From positions 1-26,414 of IMG/VR virus record IMGVR_UViG_3300017752_000129: a stretch of DNA of 26,414 nucleotides. The stretch is one strand, 5' to 3'. Below the pieces are notes generated by a model that did no database searches, was not told the origin of the DNA, and saw only the letters and a program-made list of their open reading frames with translations. The position numbers and the translations under genes were made by a program. Positions 125 through 26,414 of this stretch are shown here, piece by piece (position 1 is the stretch's first letter; each line of letters opens with the position of its first letter). The DNA is from a virus.

Positions 125-535
125 TTAGTTTGCGCCGAAATCTTCTGGGCGTATTGTTGCGACATCGCCATCGGCATATTCACCGCCAATGCGTACATCA
201 TTAGGTTTGTCTTCTGCATATGCTAAAACACTTTCTGCTTCAACCATTCTCATTTCAACTTCACCTACGTCGGTAATATCAAGTTTCATTCCTCTAGTCC
301 AACGACCGTGTTCGACAAGTATCCAATGACCAATTTCATATTCGTCTTTGTTCTCAGGACCTTTGGAATATACCTTACCCCAACGAGGATAAACTCCTCT
401 TGTCTGGCCGTCATCACTACTAATGATTAATCCGCTTGCAGTTTTTTGCTCGCCAAAGTCCATATCAGTTACAAGAACTCTATTTCCTATAGCACGGAGT
501 TTATCAGTCTTAATTGAATTAATATTTATTGCCAT
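125..535 (-). CDS. GroES / T4 gp31-like co-chaperonin
   Basis: 136 aa. Residues about 10-105 read as a GroES fold: an opening strand LRAIGNRVLVTDM, a mobile-loop region with TASGLIISSDD where GroES would contact the GroEL-type chaperonin, then the barrel strands GKVYSKGPE and GHWILVEHGRW. A short acidic tail (about 107-136) follows. T4 gp31 replaces host GroES to fold the major capsid protein; the same role is inferred here. The start ATG is preceded by AGGTGA inside the last codons of the 107-aa gene and lies 3 nt after that gene's TAG, so translation is probably coupled. The early-type promoter at 1449-1421 is the nearest visible promoter. Confidence is good for the family, moderate for the gp31 role. 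Confidence 0.8.
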   Translation of the reverse strand: MAININSIKTDKLRAIGNRVLVTDMDFGEQKTASGLIISSDDGQTRGVYPRWGKVYSKGPENKDEYEIGHWILVEHGRWTRGMKLDITDVGEVEMRMVEAESVLAYAEDKPNDVRIGGEYADGDVATIRPEDFGAN

Positions 536-538
536 TAA

Positions 539-862
539 CTAGTCACCTTTTTGTACAAAATTACCGTCTTCGTCTTCGATCCAATCGTCATTGTCTACTG
601 CTTCTTCTGGTGGCATAAACTCTGTACGTTTTACTGGATTTTCGTCAGCTTTATTAGGGTTAGCATTTTCATAATAACCTTTTAATACATCCTCACGACT
701 TCTAATAACTTGTCCGCCTGGACCTAATTCATCGCCACGAGCATTAATTTTTGCATTGCCAACTGCTGGAGTCATTTCATTACGTTTTCTTAGTAAATCC
801 ATGTCAACTTGTTTACCTTGCATAGTTTTATAAACTTTTGCGCCTTTTGTTTTCTGTACCAT
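539..862 (-). CDS. Conserved-looking phage protein of unknown function (107 aa)
   Basis: Function not recognised. The N-terminal third is basic (MVQKTKGAKVYKTMQGKQV) and the C-terminal third very acidic (EEAVDNDDWIEDEDGNF), with a central Gly/Asn-rich stretch including TPAVGNAKINARGDELGPGG and then REDVLKGYYENANP. No membrane segment, signal peptide or cysteine is visible, so a soluble, partly disordered cytoplasmic or virion-associated protein is likely. A good Shine-Dalgarno (TAGGAG) lies about 8 nt before the ATG, in the 30-nt gap after the DnaE-like gene. The stop codon sits 3 nt before the start of the co-chaperonin gene and its last codons carry that gene's ribosome binding site, so the two are probably made together. 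From memory, similar short proteins are widespread in marine T4-like phages; this could not be searched. Confidence 0.75.
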   Translation of the reverse strand: MVQKTKGAKVYKTMQGKQVDMDLLRKRNEMTPAVGNAKINARGDELGPGGQVIRSREDVLKGYYENANPNKADENPVKRTEFMPPEEAVDNDDWIEDEDGNFVQKGD

Positions 863-892: not shown

Positions 893-1414
893 TTATCTCA
901 GGAACTCTCTCCAATCCAGGCCAAACTGGATTGAATTTATCTTGTGTACACCAATTAGATATAGCACGTATGATGCTACAGAGCTACCTCTACCTACACC
1001 CCATACAATATTGTTCTCACGCATAAAGTCTACAAGATAAACCATATACCGTAGTAATGGTAGCATACCTCGTTTGTTAAACTCTGCATATTCTTCAAAG
1101 TAACGTGTAAGTTCTTCTTGTGTTTTACATTTATCTTGTAAAAATTTTGAAATATCTAAATTCTTATATTCATCAGGCATAAACCATTCTGATTGTAATG
1201 CACCGTCAAAAGTCTTTTCGTCTACATCTAATGGAATATACTTTTGTAGTTTGTCAAAGCCTTGTTCTTCCATAGCGGCATTGAACTTGTCTACATCATC
1301 GTCTGCATCGCACAACACCACATGTACTTTATCCGCATGACCACTATAGATCATGTCAATTAAATCTCTATTGGAGAATCGTGGTATTCCGAGGTCGTCA
1401 GTTTTCATAAGCAT
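893..1414 (-). CDS. DnaE-like protein: stand-alone fragment resembling bacterial DNA polymerase III alpha palm entry
   Basis: 173 aa. The C-terminal 45 residues (NNIVWGVGRGSSVASYV, then LYLIGVHKINSIQFGLDWREFLR read in two parts) match the conserved GRGS block where the palm domain of bacterial Pol III alpha begins; that family normally reads GPGRGSAAGSL...ITxIDPLxxxLLFERFLNPxR. The protein stops exactly there, before the block carrying the catalytic aspartates, and is about one seventh of a full alpha subunit. Nothing in the 30 nt after the stop continues the homology. The N-terminal half (about 1-90, including VHVVLCDADDDVDKF) is unassigned. It cannot be a polymerase by itself; nucleotide binding or interference with the host replicase is speculation. 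Two starts are possible: ATG 1414, which would lie at the transcription start of the promoter just upstream, or ATG 1408. A domain relic is the alternative explanation. Confidence 0.7.
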   Translation of the reverse strand: MLMKTDDLGIPRFSNRDLIDMIYSGHADKVHVVLCDADDDVDKFNAAMEEQGFDKLQKYIPLDVDEKTFDGALQSEWFMPDEYKNLDISKFLQDKCKTQEELTRYFEEYAEFNKRGMLPLLRYMVYLVDFMRENNIVWGVGRGSSVASYVLYLIGVHKINSIQFGLDWREFLR

Positions 1415-1420
1415 ACTTGT

Positions 1421-1449
1421 ATTTTACGACACTTTTATAAGATTGTCAA
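1421..1449 (-). promoter_or_regulatory. Sigma70-like promoter, TTGACA-N17-TAAAAT
   Basis: On the minus strand, -35 TTGACA is at 1449-1444 and -10 TAAAAT at 1426-1421, with a 17-bp spacer. The -35 box lies in the last codons of the 78-aa gene and the -10 overlaps its TAA stop. The predicted start point, about 7 nt on, is at or near base 1414, the A of the ATG of the DnaE-like gene, so the transcript may be leaderless. It would drive the DnaE-like, 107-aa, co-chaperonin and pyrophosphohydrolase genes separately from the late fibre genes. Confidence 0.6.
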
Positions 1450-1660
1450 GTCCTGATTCGCCATTATCTTGTTGCTGTCGTAATAAAGCAGAAGCTCTGC
1501 GTGATCGAGCTTCATCTTTAAACATTTCGAGTATAGTTGCTACTTGCTGTTGTAGTTGTGGATTTTGCGTTGAGAAATATTTACGGCCTAATTCTGCTAC
1601 CTTGTCTTCAACTTCTGAATCAGATAGAACGCTAAAATCATCTACAAGAGGATTAAACAT
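1424..1660 (-). CDS. Small acidic/helical protein of unknown function (78 aa)
   Basis: Function not recognised. The protein is predicted to be almost entirely helical: DSEVEDKVAELGRKYF, then PQLQQQVATILEMFKDEARS and RRASALLRQQQDNGESG. Such a Gln/Glu/Arg-rich pattern suggests a short coiled coil. The start ATG shares one base with the stop of the 195-aa fibre-type protein (TAATG) and no Shine-Dalgarno is visible, so expression by translational coupling is likely. That makes it the last gene of the late fibre operon and a candidate fibre chaperone or small virion component, by position only. Its last codons contain the -35 and part of the -10 of the next promoter. Confidence 0.7.
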   Translation of the reverse strand: MFNPLVDDFSVLSDSEVEDKVAELGRKYFSTQNPQLQQQVATILEMFKDEARSRRASALLRQQQDNGESGLDNLIKVS

Positions 1661-7308: not shown

Positions 7309-10300
7309 TTACTTACCGACTAATACTTCAATAATTCCTTTGCCGTCCGTATCTTTTGCTTCTACTGCTTTACCAATAATTGTTCCGTATTGTGGACTAT
7401 TATTAACCATTGCATATCCTGGTATAGCACTGGATACAAGTATATCACCTTTAGCAACTGTACCAAGTACCTTACATGGTACACGCCCTGTTAGTGCAAC
7501 ACCTATTACGTGATCACCTTCAAGTCCACTGTTCATCAAGTGTGCTGGATTAGTTGTAACAACACCTGCAACTCTGTGATCAGCTTTTTTATCAGTTAGT
7601 GTAATTTCAGCATCGCCGCCTAATACAACAACTGTACCTGATTCGTAATCTGCATCAGCTAAGTAGTTCTCTGCCAAGTCAGCATATTTTGCATTAGTAG
7701 CTGTACCGCTGAATGTTGTACCATATACTGTACTCCATGCCGCTGACGCACTACCTAAGTTACGTGTACCAGTTGGAATAATATTAGTATCAACACTACC
7801 ATTCATTGATATAGTATCTGCGCCTGCATTACCTAAATCAACATTGCCTGTAAATGATGCTGTTGTACCACTTACGCCTGCACTAAATGTTCCTGATGTA
7901 CCACTTATAGCTCCTGCTGAGAATGTGCCACAACCAAGTGTACCATTTACTTGCGTAGCACCAGTGCTTGCATTTACAGTAAATTTATTAGCACCAATTT
8001 CAAAGTTTACATTTGATTTAACTAACGCCTGAGTTGTTACTAATGATTCTGTTCCATTTGCAATTACAACAATTGAACCAGCCGCTGAATTTGTAAACGC
8101 ACTTGGTCCACCTAATGAAATACCTGTTGGCGCCGCAGTTCCTTGCTGAGAATCTAACGCTTCAATAAAGTTTGTGTAGTTCCATTGTGATGCTACATAA
8201 CCTTTACCAGTAAGTGCCGCCACGTTACCTTGTGCAGTACTTTCACCAGTTACTCCTGCTGTACCAACGTTCAGTTGTCCTGGCATATCAACTCTAGGCT
8301 GTATTGCCGGGTTACCTGTGCCATCTGCTTCAAGTACTTTGCCGCCGTCCATTGTAGTAAATATTACTTTGTTACCTGAGGATGACAATACTATGTCAGT
8401 TGGTGTACCACCAAGTACATAATTAGTTGCTTGTAGTGTACCATTTGAAGTTCTTCTAGCAATACTATCATTTGATGCACCAGTACTAATTATTGTTGTA
8501 CCATATACGCCTTCTGATTGTTTTACTAGTGCCGCGCCAACAATACTTTGTCCTGCGGCAAACGCTACTGGAGCACCTAGTAGTCCTGTTGTACTTCCTA
8601 CTACTGCTGATCCGTTAAACGTTCCAGTTACATTTTCAATTCTAATAGTATTTTCTGATTCTACTCTACCTTGTACAGTACCACTTGCACCAGTTGCCGA
8701 TTGTGTTATAGTTTCGTTATCAACTACACTTACATTACTTGCAAAAGTTAATATTGTAGCTGTCTGTGCTACAATTTCACTATCTTCAAAGTCAGCATCT
8801 AATAGACCAAAGCCTTGATCAACTATAGTTTCAAACGGTACTTCTTCAATTATACCTGTTCCATCAGATGATCTACCTAATACAGTATCTGTTGCAATTT
8901 CTTCAATCTTATCTACTGTAATACTTCTGTCTTTAATACCAATGTATCCACTTGCATTAACTGCTGTTACAGTAACACCACTCTGTGCTTGTGCTACTCT
9001 TTCAACCCCGCCAAGTATTTCAGCTATTTGAATAACGTCTGCACTTGCAACAAAGTTGTCCGATGTTCTAACTGTACAAAGTGTATTACCTACTATAGTA
9101 TTAACAACTCTACCACGCTGTGTACCTTGTATAATTACATCACCTGCGTTTGCTGTTAATCCATTTGAAAGTGTAAGTTGTATTTCATGTGCAAACGTAC
9201 TAGCATCAAATGTTGCTAATCCTCTGCTAGATTGTCCTACATCATCACCTGTACCATATAGTCCTGTACTGTCTGCTGATGGTTTTGCTCTTTCCATTAG
9301 CAACTTACTTTGTGCAATACTTGCAGTAGCGTTAATATCTGCATCAACTATTGATCCGTTTTCAATTTGGAAGTTAACTTCTGCAATTGGATCAGTTAAT
9401 GAGTTTGCTCTAACACCTGCTGTTCTTGTAAGTGATACATTAATAATGCTGTTAGCATCTTCTCTAGCATGACCAACTTCATCAAATGGACCACGTATAA
9501 TAGTTGCACTAACAGTACTCTTAGTTAGTGTACCTACTATAGCTTCAGCTTCATTAAAGTCTACACTAGGCAGTCCTGATACTGGTCCTGTGCCTAGTTC
9601 ATATGTAATAACTGCAATGTTGTTACCTGGTTCTAGCTCACCAATAATTTCATCAGTAGTTGTAAAGATATCTACAATGGTTGCTTCTTTTGTACCACTT
9701 GCATCTCTTACAACATCGCCAACTTCGTGTGTGTCACTACCGCTACTATCTTCTGGTAGTGTTGTATATGCTTTGCTTAAACCTGTGAATACTACAAGGT
9801 CGCCGCCTTCAACTCTGTTTGTTGCGGTATTTCTTACAGATTCAAAACTATCAAATTCTGTAATCTTTGTATCAACGTAATCTTTGTTTGCCGCATCTGA
9901 TCCACCATCTGGGTTAGCAACGTTTGTTATTTTATTTGCTCCCATTTGTAAATCACCTGTCATTTCAGGTGTTCCACTTAGTGGTAAAAATCCAGTACCA
10001 ATTGTACCAGCTACACTGTTATCGTTTTTGTCTCTACCTAAACGTTTGTTGATGTATGATACGATAGCTTTTTCTACTGGTACTGCTGTATCTGATTCAT
10101 CTGCCATTGAGTCATCAATTGAAAATTCATCAATTGTAACACCCTTTTTAAATCCAAGTGCGTTAGCACCTGTAATACCAATCTCACCTGAGAATTTAAT
10201 ACTACCTTGTCCTTGGTCAACTTCAAAGAACTTACCAACACGGAAGAAACCAAATTGGTCTGTACTCATCCAAAATACTCTACCTTTACGTCTTTCCCAA

Positions 10301-13300
10301 ACTTGCGCACTTGATGCGTTTGGAGAATCTGTATAGAATGGTGCTAGTCCGTTTTCAGGATCACCTAAAATAACATTTGGATAGTTACTTGCGTTAAATC
10401 CACCTGTACCAATCTGTGTAAAGTCATGTCCAGTTGCACGACATAGTGAAATACTAACTGTAATTTCTGCTGACTGTTTGTTTGGAATAGTAGCACGTAG
10501 TATCTTATTTGCTGTAAATGCTGTATTAATACCTTGTGTTGCACCACTTGTTAAATCGCCACGTGCCGCACCGTATATTGTAATAAATGCTGGTGTAGTT
10601 GATGTTGCCGCAATAGTTTGTGCTGACTGATCTCTAACATAACCAATGGCTACTAATGTTGCCGCTTTTTGGTTACTTCTTACAACATATGCATTACCTC
10701 TTTGATATGAAAGACCTGCTGTAACTGCATTATAGTTTGTACCTAATGCAACATCGTATGCAATAGCATCAATCATTAATCCAACATCACGTTCACACTT
10801 AGCATCGTCATATTGTAACTGTGTATAGTTTGTATTGATAAAGCCAATTGTGTTTGATTGTATAGTTGCTTTGTTTGCTAATAGTGAACTATTTGCTGTA
10901 CTGTACTGTGCGTCTACCCAACTAATACTTGGAAGTACTGTAGCTGGTAAGTTTGACAATCCTTCGTCATTAATAACACCTTTAATAATGTTTACTAATG
11001 CTTCTACTTCGTTTCCTTCTGTTGCTGTAGCACCTGTTCCGCTAGTGTCTTGTACTACTATAGCCTGTAATGGTGTTACTGCAACTTCTGTCACAACCTT
11101 TTCAACTACTTCAGCTAGGTATGTATATGCATCAACAGTAGCAGTTTTTTGTCCTACTCCTAATTGTGATGCCGCACCTACAAAGTATGCTTTAGCATTT
11201 GTAGTTGTACCACTGTTACCGCCATATAATACATCATAACATAATGCATCAACAATGTATCCAACATCACGTGAACAATATGCTTTGTTCATTGCATTGT
11301 ATACTGATAAGTGGTTTATTTTAATATGTTCTAATATTTCTGCTTGTATAAATGCTTTGTTTGCAATCAATTGATCTTTAGCATTTACTTTATTTGCAGA
11401 TCCACCTGTTGGTGCAGGAAATACTAATTCATCTGCTGATACACTTGTACTTGCTTGTCCGTTTTCAAGTATGTCAATAATTTCACTAAAGCCTGCATTA
11501 GATCTTTCTACTGATGGACTTTGTGTAAATCTAACAATCTGATGTGATCTACCTTCCCAGTTGAATACCATACCGCCGGAGTAACCAGTTGCTGTTGGAG
11601 CCACTCCAATACCGTTAGCAATAACGTTAGTAACAATATTCATTAACGTTTCTACTCTTGTGTCTGCATCTACTTCTGGAGCTGTACCTGTTAAATCTTG
11701 TGTAACACCATTAGTATTAATTGCTGTCCAAGCAGTTTGTGCTAAAATATAATCTGCAACAATTTCTTTTGCTTTGTTTACTGCCGCAATAGTTTCTACA
11801 GTTTGACCTGCTACTCTACTTACTGCACCAATCCAATATGATAGTGCCGCTTCTACAGTCTTAGCATTACCGTCGTGCTTGATATCGTGATCAACTGCAC
11901 TTAGTATCATGCCTATGTCTCTGTAACATTTAGCTGAATCATAAGTTAAACTTGGATACGTTGCATCAACAAATGCAACTACTTCTTCTTGTACAAAAGT
12001 TTTGTTTCTTAAAATTAAAGAACTTGCATTTAAATCTTGTAGTATTGCAGGTGGTTGAGTATTATTAATATCTGTTTGTAAACGTTTAACTTCTGTTTCA
12101 TCAATAACAAAACCTTCTGCCGCTGGATTAATAGCAATTTGTAAGTCACCTATGTCGCCACCTTGACCGCCTGCAACATTTGCACTGTCAACTTGCATTT
12201 CAATGTTATCGTATTCTACTTCAAATGTTACACTAACACTTTCATCTGGTAGTGACTGTCCTTGACTATCAAAGCTACTAAACGCAATTGATCTGTAAGT
12301 GATGTCATCACTTTCGTCAAAGTTAATAGCAGTAGATGGACGAGTTACTAATTGATCTTGATCTCTTACACCATCAAATCTGTGTGTTGATGCATGTCTA
12401 TATTCTATAAACGCACCGTTAGCAACATCTTCTCTTACTTGACTAAAGAAGTCTCCGTTAGTACCTTCTGGGGTACCACTAATTTGCATTTGATAAATTG
12501 TGTTGTTGTATCTACCAACTGGTATTACACTAGTTCCATCTGATCCATATACTTTGTCAATTGTAAATGCTAGGTCAACAGCACCACCGCCGCCTAAAGC
12601 ACTGTCTGCAATAGTTAGTGAGTTGCCATCTGCATAGCCTGATCCACTTTGTGTTACTTCTATTGTAGCGGCACCGCCTGCACTAACAACTACTTTGAAT
12701 AATGCATCACTTCCAGTTCCGCCTGTTGCTGTTACATTATTATATGTACCAACTGTTCTACTAGCATCTGCTCCGCCAATTCCTGTAACAGTATGTATAC
12801 CTGAAATAACCTTATCACCTGGATTTGTACCGTCACCTAAAGACTTTGCAACGTTAATATTGTATTGTAATGTTCCGGCAGCACCTGGGTGGTTAATAGT
12901 AATTACTGAATTGTTTTCTGGTAAGCGTTTTAAATCTGTAATATATAATGAATTTGATTCGAATGTATTGAGGAAGGATCCATCTTCAAACCATCTTACA
13001 GCTCTTGCTGGTTGTGACATATCTCCACTGTATACAACCTGATCTGGAATTTCGTTTGGATCAGCACCTTCAGCAACTAAGCCAAAGTTACCATAACCGT
13101 TAGAACCGTTTAGTGATCTAATCTCTGAACCATTAGCCGCATAGTATGCCGCATGGCAGTAGTATGTAAACATACTAACCATTTCAGAGAACGCACCGTT
13201 TGTAGTTACAAGAGCGTAACCTAAGTCGTTAATCTGTGTAAAGTCGTTTCCGAGCATACTTCTGTTACCAGCAGTTTGCAAGTATAAGTCTCTAGCAATA

Positions 13301-16300
13301 TCACCTGGACGATCTTCAAACAATGATTCATCAAATCCTGCATTGTTGTTAGATGTTGCATCTAAGTAAATTTTACACCAACCCTGTGATTGGTCGTAAT
13401 CTGATATAGCATTAACTTGGAAACGTCTACCTTCAATATAGAAAGGACATGGTAATTCTGGTTCTCTAATAAACAGACCTTGTCCTTCTTCAGAGCGTAC
13501 CCAAAGTGTGTAGTTATTAATCTTACCACTTTCAGCACCGTTACCAACATCAATAGTTGTTGGAACACTCATAGGTAAGTTACCTACATAAGCGTCAACA
13601 AACATACCACCAGCAAATATCTGAGCATTAATACTCTTACTAAATGATGATCCTGTTTGTACATATGGTGATTTAGTTAAAATTTGTCCTGCTGGGTCAA
13701 GTACACATAAGAATCCGCCGTGTCCTTGTACAGTCATGTTACGTAAGATACTAGCATCGTTCATCAAGAACACATCCATCTCATCATTACGTTTAGGTGG
13801 ATTAAAGCGTCTATCAAACGCATATATTATTCTATCAACTAAGTTGTTTACAATAGTTCCAGTACCTGATTCAGCTACACCGTACTTAAAGTCTGGTGCA
13901 ATGTATGAACTATTACCTGTGTTTTGTAGAATGTTTGATGGGCTGTATGCTCCTTGGAACAATCTGTTCATAATAGTTGCTGTGTATAATATTGCATTTT
14001 TAGTAACGTTTTCTTGTCCACCAAATCCGCCGTTATTATATTTTACAATATAACTATCATAGTATTCGCCTTGTACTTGTAATGATTGCTCATCATCGCC
14101 AATTAATAAATCTTTACCAATTGCATCAGCAATAAGTCCTGTATCTCTTTTACACTTAGCAATGTTATATGTAAATACTGCTTCTGGACTAGCATCAATA
14201 ACTGTAATTGCACTATCTCTAATTGTAGTAGTTGCACCAGCAATGCCAGAGTTGGCTGCCACTAGTGCTGAATCTAATCCTATTAGACTTGGGAATGTTT
14301 CTGACGCTAAGTTTAGCAAGTTATTGTTATTGATATTTGTACGTAGTATTTCAACTAAGTTAGAAACTTCAGTACCTTGTGTTGCTGTAGCAGGAGTTCC
14401 AGCAATATCTTGTGCAATGCCATTACCTGTTGTTGGAGTAACTGCAATATTTTGCACAATATCACTAAACACACCTTTTAAATGTTGCAACATTTCTACT
14501 GTTGCTTGTCTGGTAACAATTTCTAAACGCAAACGATCACCAATAAACATATCTTTAGTGTATTCAACTATTGCTGTGTTTGAGTTATACATAATGTCAT
14601 ATGCTACTGCATATGCTAAACAACGTGCATCACGTAAACGAACTTCTTCGTTAAAGTATTTTCTAGGACTATTTAATTTTAAATATGCTAATGCCTCTTG
14701 AGCAATAAAATCATAGTTAGCTACAAGTCTGTCTTTTGCATTTTCACGTAGTGGATCAGTTGTGTTAACAGTATTGTATACTGGAAGTGATGCTGAATTA
14801 TCTGTATCCATTACACCATTTTGTATAATGTCAATGATTTCATCAAACGCCGCTGATGCTCTAGTAGTTGCATCTGTTGAACTAACTATTGCTGGTAAGC
14901 CGTTAACTAATCTTTTTGCTTCAGTAAGACCTACAACCCATATGCTTTTTAGTTGTGCATCTTTATAAATTGTTTTGTCTCTTTGGAATTCTAATCCTAA
15001 ATATCTTGCATTATATGTAGTATCTAATGCAATATCGTATCCGATACCTGTTAGGATTTTAATTAGATCATCACCAAACTGTGTGTGATCATAAAGTAAA
15101 TCAGAAGTATTTTGATTAATATACTCAATTACTTCATTTTGAATAAATTCTCTGTTCTCTGCAATAATATTTGCCGCTCTAGCATACTCACCTGCGTTAG
15201 TAACTGCAATGCCTGTGTCTACTGGCAGTTCAGGATTTGTTAGGTAATGGTACCCAAAGTAACCTTGCCAATCACCTGTTTGGTTATAGAATCTTGCACC
15301 ACCTGTTGTAATGTCTAGGCCGTCAAAATATTTGTCTCTATAGGTGTATGTATTTGCATACTGTGATTGTGATACACGATTTTTTGGACGTATAATTACT
15401 CGTCTAAATTCATCACCTTTTAATGATACGTTAGCCGCAATCTTAATTGGATAGTCTTCTTCGTATTGTCCTGACTCAACAAATATTGTTACTTGTTCAG
15501 TATTAACAAAGTTACCGTATTCAAGATCTTCGCCTTCAATAAAGTCAATTGGTTTTAACAAATGTACTTCAATGTTATCGTTACCATTGTTTGTTGCGTC
15601 ATTTTGTGTGTAAGTTACAATACGACCTTGCGCACCTGATATCTTACCAACAAGTATTTTACCTGGAAGAACATCTCTGTTTTCAATATTACCTTGGTCA
15701 GTAGCACCTAGTCCGCCATTGGCTACAATAACACGATATGTTTTACCGTATGCTACACTTGCACCTTCGTCAATGCCATTTGAAAGAATATTAATAACTA
15801 AGTTAAATTTATCTGTTACAGCTTGTCTTGCAACAGGTTCAGCATCATCACCTATATCAAACTTTTGTTTTTCGTCTGTTTGATATACTAGTCCAACATT
15901 ACCTTGTCCAGCATATGTTGTAAACAATGTACTATCTAATGGTGTTGATAAAGTTTCATCTGTAAATAGTTCTAGTGTTCTTGCTCCTGTAACTTTAACA
16001 TAATAGAAGTTATCATTTACTTCTGTCATGCCTGATACAGAATCAATTACAATAATATTTTTATCTACAAGTCCGTGATCAATAACTGTAGTTAAAGTTG
16101 CAATACTACTGCTTGTAATAGAAGCAACAGCTACTTGGTTAAATCTTCTGTTTAACAATACCTGTTCTACATAATCTCTAGCTGTAGTAATAGCCGCAAC
16201 AGTCTCTGTTAATTGTCGACCTATTGCAATTCTACCACTTGCACTAGCATAGTAGCTCTCGGCAGCTCTTCTAGTTAAACTGTTTGCTGTTGCTTCTGTT

Positions 16301-17730
16301 AAACTTGGCGAACGATTAATATCAAATGCAATAGCATCTAATATTAGTCCTAAGTCTCTTTCACATAATTCAATATTATATTCAAAGGTAGGATATGTAA
16401 ATGCTAGGTATGCTGTTATCTCTCTGATAAACCATTCTCTATTATCTTCAATAAGATTTCTTGCTTGATTAAACAGTGGATTATTAATACCTCTAGAAAC
16501 AACTTCTGCGTTGGCCGCTTTGTTATCTCTAGTAATTGTTTGCATGTAAGGACCTGGTTCAGCACTAGATGCTTTAATCATTTCCTCTGCACGTTTTGCC
16601 GCGGCGTTAATACTTCTATAAGCATAACTCCATGATGTACCATCTTTGCCACTTGGCACGCCACGCATTTTGTCATCACCTGTTGTGCTAACAAATAAGT
16701 TTTGTGGACTTGAATAACTTGTGTTATCTACATAAAATTTAGTAGCCGCTTGTAAGTCTTCTGGACTAGTAGTTAATCCTGCTAGTTCTCCTGGGCTATC
16801 ATGTAATACTAACGGACCTGTCATAGTATCGCCTTGGCGTCTTACTACGCTCTTACGTGGCATTGCTTCGTTTGCTAAGAAGAATCCTTCTAAGTTTGAA
16901 TCATATCCTGCGTCAGTAAATGTATGTGTATCATTTGCGTCAATAATATGTGTAATGTATGCTTGGTCAGTGTCATCAAGAGCACCTGCTTTTGATCTGT
17001 GTACACTAAGCTGACTTGTTGTTTGGTATCTAAGGTAGTATGTAGTATCTGAAATAATAGTAGAAGGGTCTGTGTCTTCTGCTTTGAATACGTAAGGTGT
17101 TCCGTTAATAGTGTTATCAAATCCGTGATCAATAACAGTTATGTTACCGCCTGTGTAACTTTGAACTGTTAGTATATACTCTGATGCGTCTACTGGTTCG
17201 TCTTCAACACGTATTGGTAATACACCTGCAATATATCTTGCATCTGCATAGCCTTTTGTAATAACAACATCATCTATTGTAAAATCATTTCCTGGGTGTA
17301 CAGCATTTAATCTGTCAACTGCTGTCTGTGTTATACCAACATTGGCAATAGCTCTTTCACTAGCGTTTAATGGTTCACCTAAACTTGGTGACAAGTCTTG
17401 TGCTAATGCTCTAAATGCTGTTGATAATATAATCTTACCAGCTATATCATAACTAATGCTTATACTGTCTGCTTCACCGTTTCCTTCAGCAGAGTCACTT
17501 GCAAACTCTTGATATTCTAATGCAGTACCTGCATCATTAACAAGAAGTATTTTTCTTGGGTCTAATATGTTTGGTGTATCGCCTAAGTTTGTAAAACTGA
17601 TTGTTCCACCAGCTCCAAATACTGCATATAGTTCTTGAAAGTTCTCGTTTACCTTACGAAACGATTCTCTAATACTATCGCCGGTGCCGTCATTACCCTC
17701 AACACCAATATCAATACCTTGTTTTGCCAT
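7309..17730 (-). CDS. Giant tail-fibre/virion structural protein (3473 aa) with helical repeats, beta-helix-like segments and YADLAE C-terminal domain
   Basis: One uninterrupted 10.4-kb frame. The N-terminus carries GNDGTGDSIRESFRKV-NENFQEL, shared with the 238-aa fibre. About 340-370 (STTGDDKMRGVPSGKDGTSW, SYAYRSINAAAKRA) and 740-780 (TIFVESGQYEEDYPI, NVSLKGDEFRRVIIRPKN) resemble pectate-lyase-like beta-helix entry strands; about 1310-1400 (MDVFLMNDASILRNMTVQGH) continues this style. Between them run seven degenerate CxRDxGxxxDAIxxDI repeats. The shaft after about 2450 is ordinary fibre beta sequence, including IGTGFLPLSGTPEMTGDLQM. The last 150 residues (KYADLAENYLADADYESGTV ... VTTNPAHLMNSG ... 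VALTGRVPCKVLGTVAKGDI) resemble a fibre C-terminal domain related to peptidase-G2/intramolecular-chaperone families; self-cleavage is possible, not shown. GGAG Shine-Dalgarno 8 nt upstream; late promoter 17790-17783. Probably the largest receptor-binding or baseplate fibre. Confidence 0.85.
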   Translation of the reverse strand: MAKQGIDIGVEGNDGTGDSIRESFRKVNENFQELYAVFGAGGTISFTNLGDTPNILDPRKILLVNDAGTALEYQEFASDSAEGNGEADSISISYDIAGKIILSTAFRALAQDLSPSLGEPLNASERAIANVGITQTAVDRLNAVHPGNDFTIDDVVITKGYADARYIAGVLPIRVEDEPVDASEYILTVQSYTGGNITVIDHGFDNTINGTPYVFKAEDTDPSTIISDTTYYLRYQTTSQLSVHRSKAGALDDTDQAYITHIIDANDTHTFTDAGYDSNLEGFFLANEAMPRKSVVRRQGDTMTGPLVLHDSPGELAGLTTSPEDLQAATKFYVDNTSYSSPQNLFVSTTGDDKMRGVPSGKDGTSWSYAYRSINAAAKRAEEMIKASSAEPGPYMQTITRDNKAANAEVVSRGINNPLFNQARNLIEDNREWFIREITAYLAFTYPTFEYNIELCERDLGLILDAIAFDINRSPSLTEATANSLTRRAAESYYASASGRIAIGRQLTETVAAITTARDYVEQVLLNRRFNQVAVASITSSSIATLTTVIDHGLVDKNIIVIDSVSGMTEVNDNFYYVKVTGARTLELFTDETLSTPLDSTLFTTYAGQGNVGLVYQTDEKQKFDIGDDAEPVARQAVTDKFNLVINILSNGIDEGASVAYGKTYRVIVANGGLGATDQGNIENRDVLPGKILVGKISGAQGRIVTYTQNDATNNGNDNIEVHLLKPIDFIEGEDLEYGNFVNTEQVTIFVESGQYEEDYPIKIAANVSLKGDEFRRVIIRPKNRVSQSQYANTYTYRDKYFDGLDITTGGARFYNQTGDWQGYFGYHYLTNPELPVDTGIAVTNAGEYARAANIIAENREFIQNEVIEYINQNTSDLLYDHTQFGDDLIKILTGIGYDIALDTTYNARYLGLEFQRDKTIYKDAQLKSIWVVGLTEAKRLVNGLPAIVSSTDATTRASAAFDEIIDIIQNGVMDTDNSASLPVYNTVNTTDPLRENAKDRLVANYDFIAQEALAYLKLNSPRKYFNEEVRLRDARCLAYAVAYDIMYNSNTAIVEYTKDMFIGDRLRLEIVTRQATVEMLQHLKGVFSDIVQNIAVTPTTGNGIAQDIAGTPATATQGTEVSNLVEILRTNINNNNLLNLASETFPSLIGLDSALVAANSGIAGATTTIRDSAITVIDASPEAVFTYNIAKCKRDTGLIADAIGKDLLIGDDEQSLQVQGEYYDSYIVKYNNGGFGGQENVTKNAILYTATIMNRLFQGAYSPSNILQNTGNSSYIAPDFKYGVAESGTGTIVNNLVDRIIYAFDRRFNPPKRNDEMDVFLMNDASILRNMTVQGHGGFLCVLDPAGQILTKSPYVQTGSSFSKSINAQIFAGGMFVDAYVGNLPMSVPTTIDVGNGAESGKINNYTLWVRSEEGQGLFIREPELPCPFYIEGRRFQVNAISDYDQSQGWCKIYLDATSNNNAGFDESLFEDRPGDIARDLYLQTAGNRSMLGNDFTQINDLGYALVTTNGAFSEMVSMFTYYCHAAYYAANGSEIRSLNGSNGYGNFGLVAEGADPNEIPDQVVYSGDMSQPARAVRWFEDGSFLNTFESNSLYITDLKRLPENNSVITINHPGAAGTLQYNINVAKSLGDGTNPGDKVISGIHTVTGIGGADASRTVGTYNNVTATGGTGSDALFKVVVSAGGAATIEVTQSGSGYADGNSLTIADSALGGGGAVDLAFTIDKVYGSDGTSVIPVGRYNNTIYQMQISGTPEGTNGDFFSQVREDVANGAFIEYRHASTHRFDGVRDQDQLVTRPSTAINFDESDDITYRSIAFSSFDSQGQSLPDESVSVTFEVEYDNIEMQVDSANVAGGQGGDIGDLQIAINPAAEGFVIDETEVKRLQTDINNTQPPAILQDLNASSLILRNKTFVQEEVVAFVDATYPSLTYDSAKCYRDIGMILSAVDHDIKHDGNAKTVEAALSYWIGAVSRVAGQTVETIAAVNKAKEIVADYILAQTAWTAINTNGVTQDLTGTAPEVDADTRVETLMNIVTNVIANGIGVAPTATGYSGGMVFNWEGRSHQIVRFTQSPSVERSNAGFSEIIDILENGQASTSVSADELVFPAPTGGSANKVNAKDQLIANKAFIQAEILEHIKINHLSVYNAMNKAYCSRDVGYIVDALCYDVLYGGNSGTTTNAKAYFVGAASQLGVGQKTATVDAYTYLAEVVEKVVTEVAVTPLQAIVVQDTSGTGATATEGNEVEALVNIIKGVINDEGLSNLPATVLPSISWVDAQYSTANSSLLANKATIQSNTIGFINTNYTQLQYDDAKCERDVGLMIDAIAYDVALGTNYNAVTAGLSYQRGNAYVVRSNQKAATLVAIGYVRDQSAQTIAATSTTPAFITIYGAARGDLTSGATQGINTAFTANKILRATIPNKQSAEITVSISLCRATGHDFTQIGTGGFNASNYPNVILGDPENGLAPFYTDSPNASSAQVWERRKGRVFWMSTDQFGFFRVGKFFEVDQGQGSIKFSGEIGITGANALGFKKGVTIDEFSIDDSMADESDTAVPVEKAIVSYINKRLGRDKNDNSVAGTIGTGFLPLSGTPEMTGDLQMGANKITNVANPDGGSDAANKDYVDTKITEFDSFESVRNTATNRVEGGDLVVFTGLSKAYTTLPEDSSGSDTHEVGDVVRDASGTKEATIVDIFTTTDEIIGELEPGNNIAVITYELGTGPVSGLPSVDFNEAEAIVGTLTKSTVSATIIRGPFDEVGHAREDANSIINVSLTRTAGVRANSLTDPIAEVNFQIENGSIVDADINATASIAQSKLLMERAKPSADSTGLYGTGDDVGQSSRGLATFDASTFAHEIQLTLSNGLTANAGDVIIQGTQRGRVVNTIVGNTLCTVRTSDNFVASADVIQIAEILGGVERVAQAQSGVTVTAVNASGYIGIKDRSITVDKIEEIATDTVLGRSSDGTGIIEEVPFETIVDQGFGLLDADFEDSEIVAQTATILTFASNVSVVDNETITQSATGASGTVQGRVESENTIRIENVTGTFNGSAVVGSTTGLLGAPVAFAAGQSIVGAALVKQSEGVYGTTIISTGASNDSIARRTSNGTLQATNYVLGGTPTDIVLSSSGNKVIFTTMDGGKVLEADGTGNPAIQPRVDMPGQLNVGTAGVTGESTAQGNVAALTGKGYVASQWNYTNFIEALDSQQGTAAPTGISLGGPSAFTNSAAGSIVVIANGTESLVTTQALVKSNVNFEIGANKFTVNASTGATQVNGTLGCGTFSAGAISGTSGTFSAGVSGTTASFTGNVDLGNAGADTISMNGSVDTNIIPTGTRNLGSASAAWSTVYGTTFSGTATNAKYADLAENYLADADYESGTVVVLGGDAEITLTDKKADHRVAGVVTTNPAHLMNSGLEGDHVIGVALTGRVPCKVLGTVAKGDILVSSAIPGYAMVNNSPQYGTIIGKAVEAKDTDGKGIIEVLVGK
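10740..16490 (-). repeat. Seven degenerate internal protein repeats in the giant fibre
   Basis: Seven units of one helical motif are recognisable at approximate residues 453, 880, 1028, 1188, 1932, 2150 and 2305. The core is C/L-x-RD-x-G-x-x-x-DAI-x-x-D: CERDLGLILDAIAFDI, FGDDLIKILTGIGYDI, LRDARCLAYAVAYDI, CKRDTGLIADAIGKDL, CYRDIGMILSAVDHDI, CSRDVGYIVDALCYDV, CERDVGLMIDAIAYDV. Most are preceded about 25 residues earlier by a helix LI-x-N-K/R-x-FI-x-x-E (LIEDNREWFIREI, IIAENREFIQNEV, LILRNKTFVQEEV, LIANKAFIQAEI). A second helix type, E/F-x-x-L/I-V-x-I-I-x-x-x-I-x-N (FDEIIDIIQNGV, FSEIIDILENGQ, LVNIIKGVINDEG), also recurs. The units are strongly diverged, suggesting old duplication. Confidence 0.75.
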
Positions 17731-18794: not shown

Positions 18795-19068
18795 TAACAG
18801 CCCTTAGTTGTTCAATTGCAGTTTCACAGCGAGTCAGCTTACGCTCTAATACAGTGATAGCGGCTCGTTGTTTTCTTGACTGCTCTTCCAAGCTAGTTAC
18901 ATACTGAAGTGAAGGTACTTCTTGTTGTGTACCGTCTTCGCCTAGCATAGTAAATCTATCAACACCTTGTGCTTTTAGACCACCTGTAACTCTGTTTGGA
19001 TTTTTATCAGATGCAGTCGGTAACGAAGGACTTGCTGTTCGGCCGTACATTTTGTTCAAATAGCTCAT
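18781..19068 (-). CDS. Late coiled-coil protein of unknown function (95 aa), overlapping uvsE
   Basis: Function not recognised. N-terminal half: SYLNKMYGRTASPSLPTASD, low in structure. C-terminal half (about 58-92): TSLEEQSRKQRAAITVLERK then LTRCETAIEQLRAVI, a good coiled-coil pattern suggesting an oligomeric assembly factor or minor virion protein. The gene starts inside uvsE: its first 62 nt lie in the uvsE 3' end in another frame. It has a very strong GAGGAG Shine-Dalgarno 10 nt upstream and a perfect TATAAATA late box at 19096-19089, both inside the uvsE coding sequence. Late expression is therefore independent of uvsE. The coding overlap and embedded signals support it as real despite its small size. 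Confidence 0.75.
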   Translation of the reverse strand: MSYLNKMYGRTASPSLPTASDKNPNRVTGGLKAQGVDRFTMLGEDGTQQEVPSLQYVTSLEEQSRKQRAAITVLERKLTRCETAIEQLRAVISRS

Positions 19069-20101
19069 AGTGCTTTAACTCCTCTTTGTATTTATATAGG
19101 TCAATGCTGGCAAGATTCTTACACTTGCTCTCGCACATAATATCTGCATAATCTAAGAAGCTCAAAGCCCAGTCATTAACAAGTTGGTTAGGATAATAGT
19201 CGCTGTGCGCTCGTAGTTTTGCCTTCTTGTGACCTGCTTCTAGTAGTGCTGGAAAGTTTGGCATTGTGTCGTGTGCAAAGCCTTCGGGTAGTGCTGTATC
19301 TCTGCTGTAAGAATAATGTATAACAGGACGCACACCACGCCAGCTGTCAATCATGCGTTGATATCTATCGTCGGTGGGACGTATATATTCGCCTTCACGG
19401 CACCAGTGATGGTGTATGTCCAATACCAATGCGCAGGTGTCGACAAGCTCGAGGCTTGCATCGATGCCCCATTTGTTCTCGTCGTTCTCGATCGTGATTG
19501 TGTTTCTCGCCTCCGGAGAAAGTCTTGTGTTAACTGCGTGTTTGATACCGGCTGGACCTTGTCTGCCTGATATATGGACATTGCACTTGAAGTCTTGGAA
19601 CGATTGGCCATAGCCCATCCATCTGATGCAATTAACATGATATTCAAACTCCTCTATTGATCGTTCAACGATTTCTGGGTTATCACTGGCAAGCACTGTG
19701 AACTGACCTGGATGCATGGAAAGTCGCACATCAAGGGCTCTTGCCGTGGCACCGACTTCTGCAAACGCTCTCTCACAGTAAGCCACAACGTCAGGCTTAC
19801 GCCAATAATAGCACCAATCCCGCTGGGTATAAACAGGAAGTACATCAGAACCGAGCCGTACCATCCGTAGTTCAATTGGAAGACTTCCAACATATTCAAT
19901 CAACCTTTTGTATGACGCAATGTTGTGAACCATAAGTTCCCACAAGCGTTCTTCAGCAACTTCACGTGTCTGCCTATTGAGCCACTGTACAGTTGTGCTA
20001 CGAGTATTTAGTGGGCGTTGAATTTCTTCAAGCACTTTCTTCTTCTGTGTTTGATCTGGGTGCATGTACTTACATGCAAAGCCTATACGTTTAGTTACCA
20101 T
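19007..20101 (-). CDS. uvsE: UV damage endonuclease (UvsE/UVDE family)
   Basis: 364 aa. UVDE enzymes are metal-dependent TIM barrels that nick DNA 5' of cyclobutane dimers and 6-4 photoproducts. The family's landmarks appear in order: RIGFACKYMHPD at the N-terminus, LSMHPGQFTVLASDNP (about 126-142), NVHISGRQG (about 170), TIENDENKWG (about 200), LDIHHHWC (about 224-231), VIHYSYSRD (about 259) and DIMCESKCK (about 318-326). These supply the His/Glu/Asp metal ligands, so it looks catalytically intact. In a sunlit marine phage it probably repairs phage DNA. The start ATG overlaps the end of the hidden 49-aa ORF (ATGGTAA); no Shine-Dalgarno is visible. Base composition is about 50-53% G+C over 19441-19560, well above the neighbouring genes, suggesting acquisition. 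The last 62 nt are shared with the 95-aa late gene. Confidence 0.85.
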   Translation of the reverse strand: MVTKRIGFACKYMHPDQTQKKKVLEEIQRPLNTRSTTVQWLNRQTREVAEERLWELMVHNIASYKRLIEYVGSLPIELRMVRLGSDVLPVYTQRDWCYYWRKPDVVAYCERAFAEVGATARALDVRLSMHPGQFTVLASDNPEIVERSIEEFEYHVNCIRWMGYGQSFQDFKCNVHISGRQGPAGIKHAVNTRLSPEARNTITIENDENKWGIDASLELVDTCALVLDIHHHWCREGEYIRPTDDRYQRMIDSWRGVRPVIHYSYSRDTALPEGFAHDTMPNFPALLEAGHKKAKLRAHSDYYPNQLVNDWALSFLDYADIMCESKCKNLASIDLYKYKEELKHYELFEQNVRPNSKSFVTDCI

Positions 20102-21071: not shown

Positions 21072-21521
21072 TCATGCCTCGTATATTGCTGAGTTTGCTC
21101 CATGCTCTGCACATTCAACTTTAACACAATAGCAACGATTGTCTGTTGCTTCTCTAATAAGTTTGTCTGCAAAGTTAAATGCGTGTTCTGCAAATTTCTC
21201 TGCACCAACGCCTTCAAATACTCTAATTTCTGCTAGTCCTAAATTTTGTAACATCAACATAGTTTCCATCTCTGGATCTTCGTGATCAACTGCTACTTTG
21301 TGATCGAAGTGATCTTCTAACCAAGCCTTGAGTGGCTTCAGTCCACCAAAGTCTACTGCCCAATTTTTATTGTCTAGTTTATCACAACCAAATGTAAATG
21401 TAAATGCTAGACTGTATCCGTGTAGTAGATGACAGTGTGAATGATCTGCATTAGGTTGTCTAAACACTGCTGATAAGCCAATGTTGTGTCCGTAATGCTT
21501 TGTGCTATAATGTTTTCCCAT
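21072..21521 (-). CDS. queD: QueD / 6-pyruvoyltetrahydropterin synthase-like enzyme
   Basis: 149 aa, family-sized. QueD/PTPS enzymes (T-fold) convert dihydroneopterin triphosphate, in QueD to 6-carboxytetrahydropterin, a step towards preQ0/queuosine. Landmarks: STKHYGHNIG, then DHSHCHLLHGYSLAF with the catalytic-type Cys30 and zinc His34, WAVDFGGLKPLKAWLEDHFD (about 54-73), GVGAEKFAEHAF (about 104-115) and CAEHGANSAIYEA at the end. One oddity: family members normally have LHGH where this has LHGY, so one zinc ligand of the HxH pair is Tyr36, possibly replaced by the adjacent His31. It starts with AGGAG 6 nt before the ATG behind a perfect sigma70 promoter, so early expression is likely. No other queuosine or preQ0 gene is present in the window. 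Confidence 0.8.
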   Translation of the reverse strand: MGKHYSTKHYGHNIGLSAVFRQPNADHSHCHLLHGYSLAFTFTFGCDKLDNKNWAVDFGGLKPLKAWLEDHFDHKVAVDHEDPEMETMLMLQNLGLAEIRVFEGVGAEKFAEHAFNFADKLIREATDNRCYCVKVECAEHGANSAIYEA

Positions 21522-25429: not shown

Positions 25430-26414
25430 TTAGATTTTTTCGCCTACTTCAAATCCGCGGAATGTTTTAAAGCGTGGGAATCGTAAACTGTATGTTCCGT
25501 CTTGATTTTGTGTTACAGCGTCAGCTCTAACTTCTACAAGATTGCCAATAAGATCATCACGACTATTCCAATAGTCGTCCCTATGAACATCAGTGAACCC
25601 ACTACCGACATTAACGACAATATCTTTACCATCGTCGGTTCCTTTGCAGACAATCGCTCCAAGTCTGCCTTCATTACGGCCAGTACCTTCTTCAACATCT
25701 ACTACCTCCAATGTTACTTCTATAAATGGTTTTGCTTTTAGCCAAGCGTGTGTTCGTTTACATTCGTATGGTGCATCGATATCTTTTATCATAACACCTT
25801 CATAACCACCGTCTACAGCCGCTTTATTTAACGCTACAAAGCGTTCTTGGCCTTCAGGTGTGTCCAAGTCAACATCTTCCCAATCCAACGCTTGTACGTG
25901 CTCTAAGGCGTCTGCATGGTCTTCTACCCAATGCTTGGTAATAAGGCTTCTAAAGCTCTGTGGCTTGTCCCAACTACCTGCTTGAAAGCAACCTAATGGA
26001 ATAGTATCAAACAAATGCAATACTGCATCACTGTTTTGGACAGTGTCTTTACGATGTATTTGTTTCATAAGGTCTTGGAAGTTAGCACTCATTACTTCTC
26101 CGTCTAATACAAGCGGATAAGGTACAGGGTGATCTTTAATTACTGCTTTAATTTCATCAATGATATGATTAAAGTTATGAAACTGTTTTCCGTTACGACT
26201 AAACATTTCTACTTTGTCGCCTTGGATAATAGTAATAACTCTTACACCATCTAGTTTAATTTCAATTTGTTTTTTGCCTACCATCTTCTTTTCATGGTTA
26301 GCTGAGTCGTGTGCAAGTGAACAGGTAAACGTAGGTATGCTATACTTGCCGTTGAACTTTTTAGCAACCTTGTTTACTGTTTTCTCACTCACACCACAAC
26401 GCAAATCTTTAATA
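25430..26414 (-). CDS. ATP-dependent DNA ligase (N-terminus beyond window)
   Basis: The frame is open to base 26414: the residues before the first possible in-window start (TTG 26404) continue IKDLRCGVSEKTVNKV, ordinary ligase sequence, so the true start lies outside. Nucleotidyltransferase motifs are all present: motif I EIKLDGVR with the AMP-accepting lysine near 26256, motif III LVLDGEV, IIIa LHLFD, IV YEGVMIKD and V WLKAKP. A C-terminal OB domain follows (LIGNLVEVRADAVTQ, SLRFPRFKTFRG). The enzyme seals nicks using ATP and serves replication and repair. Length and motif spacing fit compact viral ligases of the T4/T7 kind rather than NAD-dependent bacterial LigA. The gene ends 62 nt before the 429-aa gene. 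The promoter is not in the window. Confidence 0.9.
   Translation of the reverse strand, partial: IKDLRCGVSEKTVNKVAKKFNGKYSIPTFTCSLAHDSANHEKKMVGKKQIEIKLDGVRVITIIQGDKVEMFSRNGKQFHNFNHIIDEIKAVIKDHPVPYPLVLDGEVMSANFQDLMKQIHRKDTVQNSDAVLHLFDTIPLGCFQAGSWDKPQSFRSLITKHWVEDHADALEHVQALDWEDVDLDTPEGQERFVALNKAAVDGGYEGVMIKDIDAPYECKRTHAWLKAKPFIEVTLEVVDVEEGTGRNEGRLGAIVCKGTDDGKDIVVNVGSGFTDVHRDDYWNSRDDLIGNLVEVRADAVTQNQDGTYSLRFPRFKTFRGFEVGEKI

Follow-up and report, generated by a model that had tools for sequence, protein, structure and literature searches.

A stand-alone gene of a large marine phage encodes the N-terminal half of a probable two-chain, Pol III alpha-type polymerase core

In 2021, Iyer et al. described a minimal Pol III alpha that is split in group 2.2 jumbo phages; they suggested that its two proteins together restore an enzyme, which might work with a B-family polymerase (PolB) in strand synthesis or in repair (PMC7824862). 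The CBB authors noted an alpha subunit that, at 172 aa, was 'truncated' (PMC5259590). In the literature searched we found no experimental test of the split polymerase, and the terms searched gave no mention of it in a 2026 jumbo-phage review. The split two-piece design was already predicted in 2021, and the gene described here is a marine member of it. New in the present work are the marine lineage, the exact position of the break, the conserved genes next to the halves in two replication loci, and the conservation of a sigma70-like promoter.

The gene occupies positions 893-1414 (minus strand) of the window, the whole 26,414-nucleotide stretch of viral DNA that was analyzed, which comes from an uncultured marine lineage. 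Its reading frame is intact, running from an ATG at 1414 to a stop codon at 893-895, and encodes a protein of 173 aa, here called the N-unit, which by homology is the N-terminal half of a split Pol III alpha-type polymerase core. The initial annotation, made from the sequence alone, had described a stand-alone DnaE fragment that ends at the GRGS block, ahead of the catalytic aspartates, and three comparisons bear this out. The Pfam family PF07733 (DNA_pol3_alpha) matches residues 97-172 (E = 4.7e-9; 36.7 bits against a cut-off of 23.9). The match covers family positions 19-94 of 260, and the N-unit thus stops partway through the domain. The PHROG family phrog_11127, of 171 aa and annotated 'DNA polymerase', spans nearly the full N-unit (E = 3.7e-43). 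In a profile comparison by hhalign, with an N-unit profile built from 48 relatives, residues 70-173 (896-1207, minus strand) align to residues 269-393 of E. coli DnaE, the first palm segment (E = 3.8e-7); this comparison detected no Pol III match for the first 69 residues. The resemblance to Pol III alpha had been proposed for the last 45 residues and is in fact wider, extending beyond the GRGS motif over 104 residues. Codons G141-R142-G143-S144 (983-994, minus strand) form this motif, which contacts the nucleotide phosphates, corresponds to E. coli 361-364 and is invariant across the 48 stand-alone relatives. In E. coli DnaE the catalytic PDFDVDF sequence begins at residue 400, and the catalytic aspartates are D401, D403 and D555. 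The N-unit stops at the counterpart of residue 393, short of these aspartates.

Relatives of the N-unit are numerous. A scan of IMG/VR identified 519 stretches that encode one, a cultured-phage N-unit query added 51 further loci, 50 of which are stand-alone, and a query with the GAP32 N-unit returned 60 phage records, including PA5oct, Atu_ph07, RaK2, SCTP-2 and a Vibrio phage. The SCTP-2 N-unit, used as a query against the viral contigs, gave zero matches. The N-unit family is stand-alone, conserved and of near-uniform length over hundreds of marine viral contigs and the 60 phage records, and it is common to phages with very different hosts; the window N-unit shares 32-46% identity with its counterparts in four cultured jumbo phages. 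Same-length homologues accordingly exist in marine phages, and stand-alone members measure 147-185 aa, bar one incomplete reading of 94 aa. An ordinary DnaE of 858 aa (L231) falls outside the stand-alone type.

A gene that holds only part of a polymerase could be the decaying remnant of a full-length DnaE. The open frames of 145 stand-alone relatives reach at most 217 aa, however, and nearly all relatives terminate at, or no more than three residues from, E-F-[LI]-[RK]. The median Ka/Ks against the window is 0.15 (61 pairs), indicative of purifying selection on the N-unit, and the promoter and neighboring genes are conserved as well (see below). Truncation of a full-length gene was rejected because the stand-alone relatives include no longer version, and no relative is a longer version that was cut short in the window. 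With conservation over hundreds of contigs, decay is refuted, in agreement with the initial judgment that an intact frame with conserved ends does not look like decay.

The catalytic half is encoded elsewhere. A finger-domain profile searched against full genomes gave weak matches in open reading frames of about 190 aa in Atu_ph07 and in a marine contig of 267,783 b (G001). These proteins, here called the C-unit, match phrog_11778; with single-sequence queries their Pfam matches are under the cut-off. They open with M(KNI)PDIDIDF, starting at or a few residues ahead of PDIDIDF, and carry the motifs Y-F-K-[LF]-D-F-L, I-R-P and F-K-K-[AS]-H in the same order as after FLN in bacterial DnaE. C-unit D3, D5 and D65 correspond to E. 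coli D401, D403 and D555, and all three are invariant in two sets of 41 and 44 sequences. The break is exactly complementary: the C-unit starts at the equivalent of E. coli residue 399 and the N-unit ends at 393, so that only the five-residue loop 394-398 is absent. In GAP32, a weak PF07733 match at 56,579 was considered as the C-terminal half and rejected because it runs across two genes, one structural and the other for a dCMP deaminase; the C-unit proper of GAP32 lies at 213 kb.

By comparison with bacterial DnaE and PolC of the C family, the phage proteins share the palm sequence, GRGS, the three aspartates, and the RP and KxH finger motifs. They differ in that the enzyme consists of two chains, with GRGS in the N-unit and the aspartates in the C-unit, whereas the bacterial enzymes carry both on one polypeptide. 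The DIDF-to-KHNTG spacing in the C-unit is about 22 residues, versus about 103 in E. coli, which indicates that the thumb is absent. Similarly, C-unit residue 8 corresponds to E. coli 406 and K30-H31 to approximately 510-511, which leaves no space for the thumb (E. coli 433-510). Much of the fingers is also missing, and the C-unit terminates after the KxH helix. PHP, OB, clamp-binding and tau-binding parts are absent from the split polymerase, and the homology of the N-unit begins only at E. coli residue 269.

Two other arrangements of DnaE were compared. Cyanobacterial DnaE is likewise encoded in two pieces, with a split intein at the division. This arrangement was rejected here: N-units end in FLR or FLK, C-units start with MPDIDIDF, and neither has an extension of intein length. 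A PHP-less DnaE of phages (phrog_405/11165-like; P0004) has about the same palm start and the same catalytic motifs, but is a single chain and, unlike the split units, still covers almost all of PF07733 and has a clear finger domain. In phages that encode it alongside the C-unit, the two are separate genes. Proteins of this type, of about 548 aa, are encoded at L277:9998-11680 (P0004) and L139:14167-15408, with relatives in L269-L348, and match PF07733 at E = 1.7e-43 and the finger domain at E = 7e-15. In many marine phages the gene lies a few kb from the C-unit and near the helicase, and both genes occur in 31 of 80 loci within the stretch examined. PolB was not found in the contigs with a P0004-type gene, which are probably fragments.

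The two halves occur together. Among the 60 phage records listed for the N-unit and the best 60 of 63 for the C-unit, 59 are common; the unshared records are PP728206 (109 kb) and OP752703, the latter of which may be among the three C-unit matches beyond those 60. G001 carries both halves. Scanning contigs of prokaryotic genomes yielded PBPT01000016.1 (335,231 b), which shares synteny with the window over tail genes, a 78-aa gene, the N-unit, a 107-aa gene, a co-chaperonin and a clamp loader. Its N-unit is 72% identical to that of the window, its PolB lies at 128 kb, and its C-unit lies at 316.5 kb, adjoining primase and helicase and 213 kb from the N-unit. This contig (L351, L364-L368) was binned and deposited as Candidatus Neomarinimicrobiota; it has phage gene content, including tail, replication and split-polymerase genes, and by that content looks like a mis-binned jumbo phage. 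A further contig of 283 kb contains the N-unit, the C-unit and PolB. PolB is also present in G001, G002, G024, G025 and four cultured phages; of all the N-unit genomes and large contigs examined, only G003, a 134-kb contig, gave no PolB. In the window's own record, a 26-kb fragment, the C-unit was not found. Contigs with a single half (e.g. G014, 261 kb; G002, 180 kb) were considered as counter-examples and set aside: they are linear records and probably fragments, and given the distance of 212-213 kb between the halves in G001 and the 335-kb contig they are uninformative.

The window gene and its relatives thus compare closely with the jumbo-phage split Pol III alpha (phrog_11127 for the N-terminal and phrog_11778 for the C-terminal protein). 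They have the same stand-alone N-unit with the NTP-binding part of the palm, a distant C-unit with the metal-binding aspartates in relatives (G001, the 335-kb and 283-kb contigs, and the 59 shared records) and a B-family polymerase in the same phage.

Both units lie close to replication genes, the N-unit near a clamp loader and the C-unit near primase and helicase. Downstream of the N-unit are a 107-aa gene with no assigned function (539-862, minus strand; phrog_14844, E = 1e-15), a conserved neighbor in 73 of 73 close relatives, and a co-chaperonin-like gene (125-535, minus strand; phrog_931, head morphogenesis) with a Cpn10 match (E = 4e-4) slightly below the Pfam cut-off. The latter is found downstream of the N-unit in all 62 close and all 46 distant relatives, and a gp44 clamp loader in 42 of the 44 close relatives with enough sequence. 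Upstream is the conserved 78-aa gene (1424-1660, minus strand), with no assigned function and a weak match to phrog_15348. The C-unit is followed by primase (57/57) and helicase (29/29). Elsewhere in the window, on the minus strand, we observed a single open reading frame of 3473 aa (7309-17730), by position a giant tail-fiber-type protein, and genes for a UvdE UV endonuclease (19007-20101; E = 4e-36), a PTPS/QueD-like enzyme (21072-21521; E = 1.5e-14) and an ATP-dependent DNA ligase (25430-26413; E = 3.6e-20).

The N-unit gene also has a candidate sigma70-like promoter of its own, as the initial annotation had claimed, with the sequence TTGACA-N17-TAAAAT at 1449-1421. The -35 element TTGACA (1444-1449, minus strand) overlaps the end of the 78-aa gene, and the -10 element TAAAAT (1421-1426, minus strand) follows 17 nt later, overlaps the stop codon of that gene and lies 6 nt ahead of the ATG. 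All 80 close relatives retain TTGAC, and the synonymous positions with it: at the -35 element, the Asp codon of the upstream gene is GAC in 80/80, against a background of 41%, and its Leu codon is CTT in 80/80, against 23%. The full arrangement TTGAC-N17-TAWWWT-N6-ATG is present in 62 of the 80, and the 335-kb contig has TTGACA-N17-TAAACT-N6-ATG. Among distant and cultured phages the picture is mixed, with the promoter present in several (L195, L197, L198, L200) and absent from L001-L004. The close relatives of the window differ in this respect from the four cultured jumbo phages compared, which lack such a promoter at 6 nt from the ATG. Judged from this spacing, transcription would be expected to begin with the A of the N-unit ATG or an adjacent base, giving a leaderless message. 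In G001, genes including the primase have TTGAC-N17-TATAAT exactly 6 nt from the ATG (L262:16464(-), L263:17807(-), L264:8915(-)), whereas early-region promoters of this contig sit 23-47 nt upstream; the promoters with 6-nt spacing possibly form a class of leaderless phage promoters.

A strong host-type promoter and a likeness to part of the host replicase could suggest that the N-unit by itself serves to decoy or inhibit host Pol III, a role that the initial annotation had offered alongside that of an unrelated adaptor. These proposals are unsupported, since the complementary catalytic half is a separate gene in the same genomes and the aspartates and GRGS are invariant; a two-chain enzyme is the simplest reading of these observations. 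The N-unit family moreover spans phages of very different hosts. The host subunits epsilon, beta and tau bind DnaE at the PHP domain, at about residues 920-924 and at the C terminus, and the region homologous to DnaE 269-393 is not a known site for any of them. We consider a decoy highly improbable.

AlphaFold models, computed from alignments of the window and viral-contig sequences, had a mean pLDDT of 81 for the N-unit and 90 for the C-unit. In Foldseek searches, the top 8 PDB matches of the N-unit model and the top 12 of the C-unit model were all Pol III alpha or PolC. The E-values were weak for the N-unit (best 0.057) and better for the C-unit (4e-4), and the TM-scores of the isolated halves were modest (0.35-0.47). 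The predicted folds support the homology of the halves rather than their assembly.

Based on these results, we propose with a probability of roughly 0.78 that the N-unit serves a large T4-related marine phage as the N-subunit of a minimal polymerase core of the C family (Pol III alpha type), built from two chains. It probably belongs to a functional enzyme in two pieces and is neither debris nor decoy. The N-unit would contribute the first palm segment, including GRGS as the nucleotide-binding loop, and the C-unit, encoded far off beside primase and helicase, would supply the three aspartates, the remaining palm and shortened fingers. We infer that the two chains dock non-covalently across the loop that runs unbroken in bacterial DnaE, thereby creating a single nucleotidyltransferase active site. 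Since a B-family replicase is present in these phages as well, the split enzyme would probably be an accessory polymerase in gap filling, repair or primer extension.

With the thumb, much of the fingers, and the PHP, OB and clamp-binding parts absent, template-directed synthesis is not assured. It is conceivable that the halves bind each other and that polymerase activity was lost, the pair serving as a nucleotide sensor or as a structural replisome subunit that, for example, bridges PolB, the clamp loader and the primase-helicase. The lack of the thumb and much of the fingers, the clamp loader, primase and helicase genes nearby, and the additional presence of PolB would all fit an inactive pair. 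A structural role alone, however, would not need aspartates and GRGS that are invariant over very diverged phages, and we regard this alternative as unlikely.

A bolder version of the two-chain polymerase, which we advance tentatively and with some doubt, is an active C-family enzyme that would be the smallest described, without thumb or clamp site, dedicated to a step between primase-helicase and B-family replicase in widespread giant marine phages, with its N-subunit made from a leaderless sigma70 transcript. If the two chains do form an active enzyme, it would be a minimal C-family polymerase found in nature and would directly test which parts of Pol III are needed for catalysis; the genes are small, so that purified proteins could settle the question. 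A large group of marine phages would then have bacterial-type and archaeo-eukaryotic-type polymerases together, a pairing that bears on the mixing of replication machineries in early replicons, as argued previously (PMC7824862).
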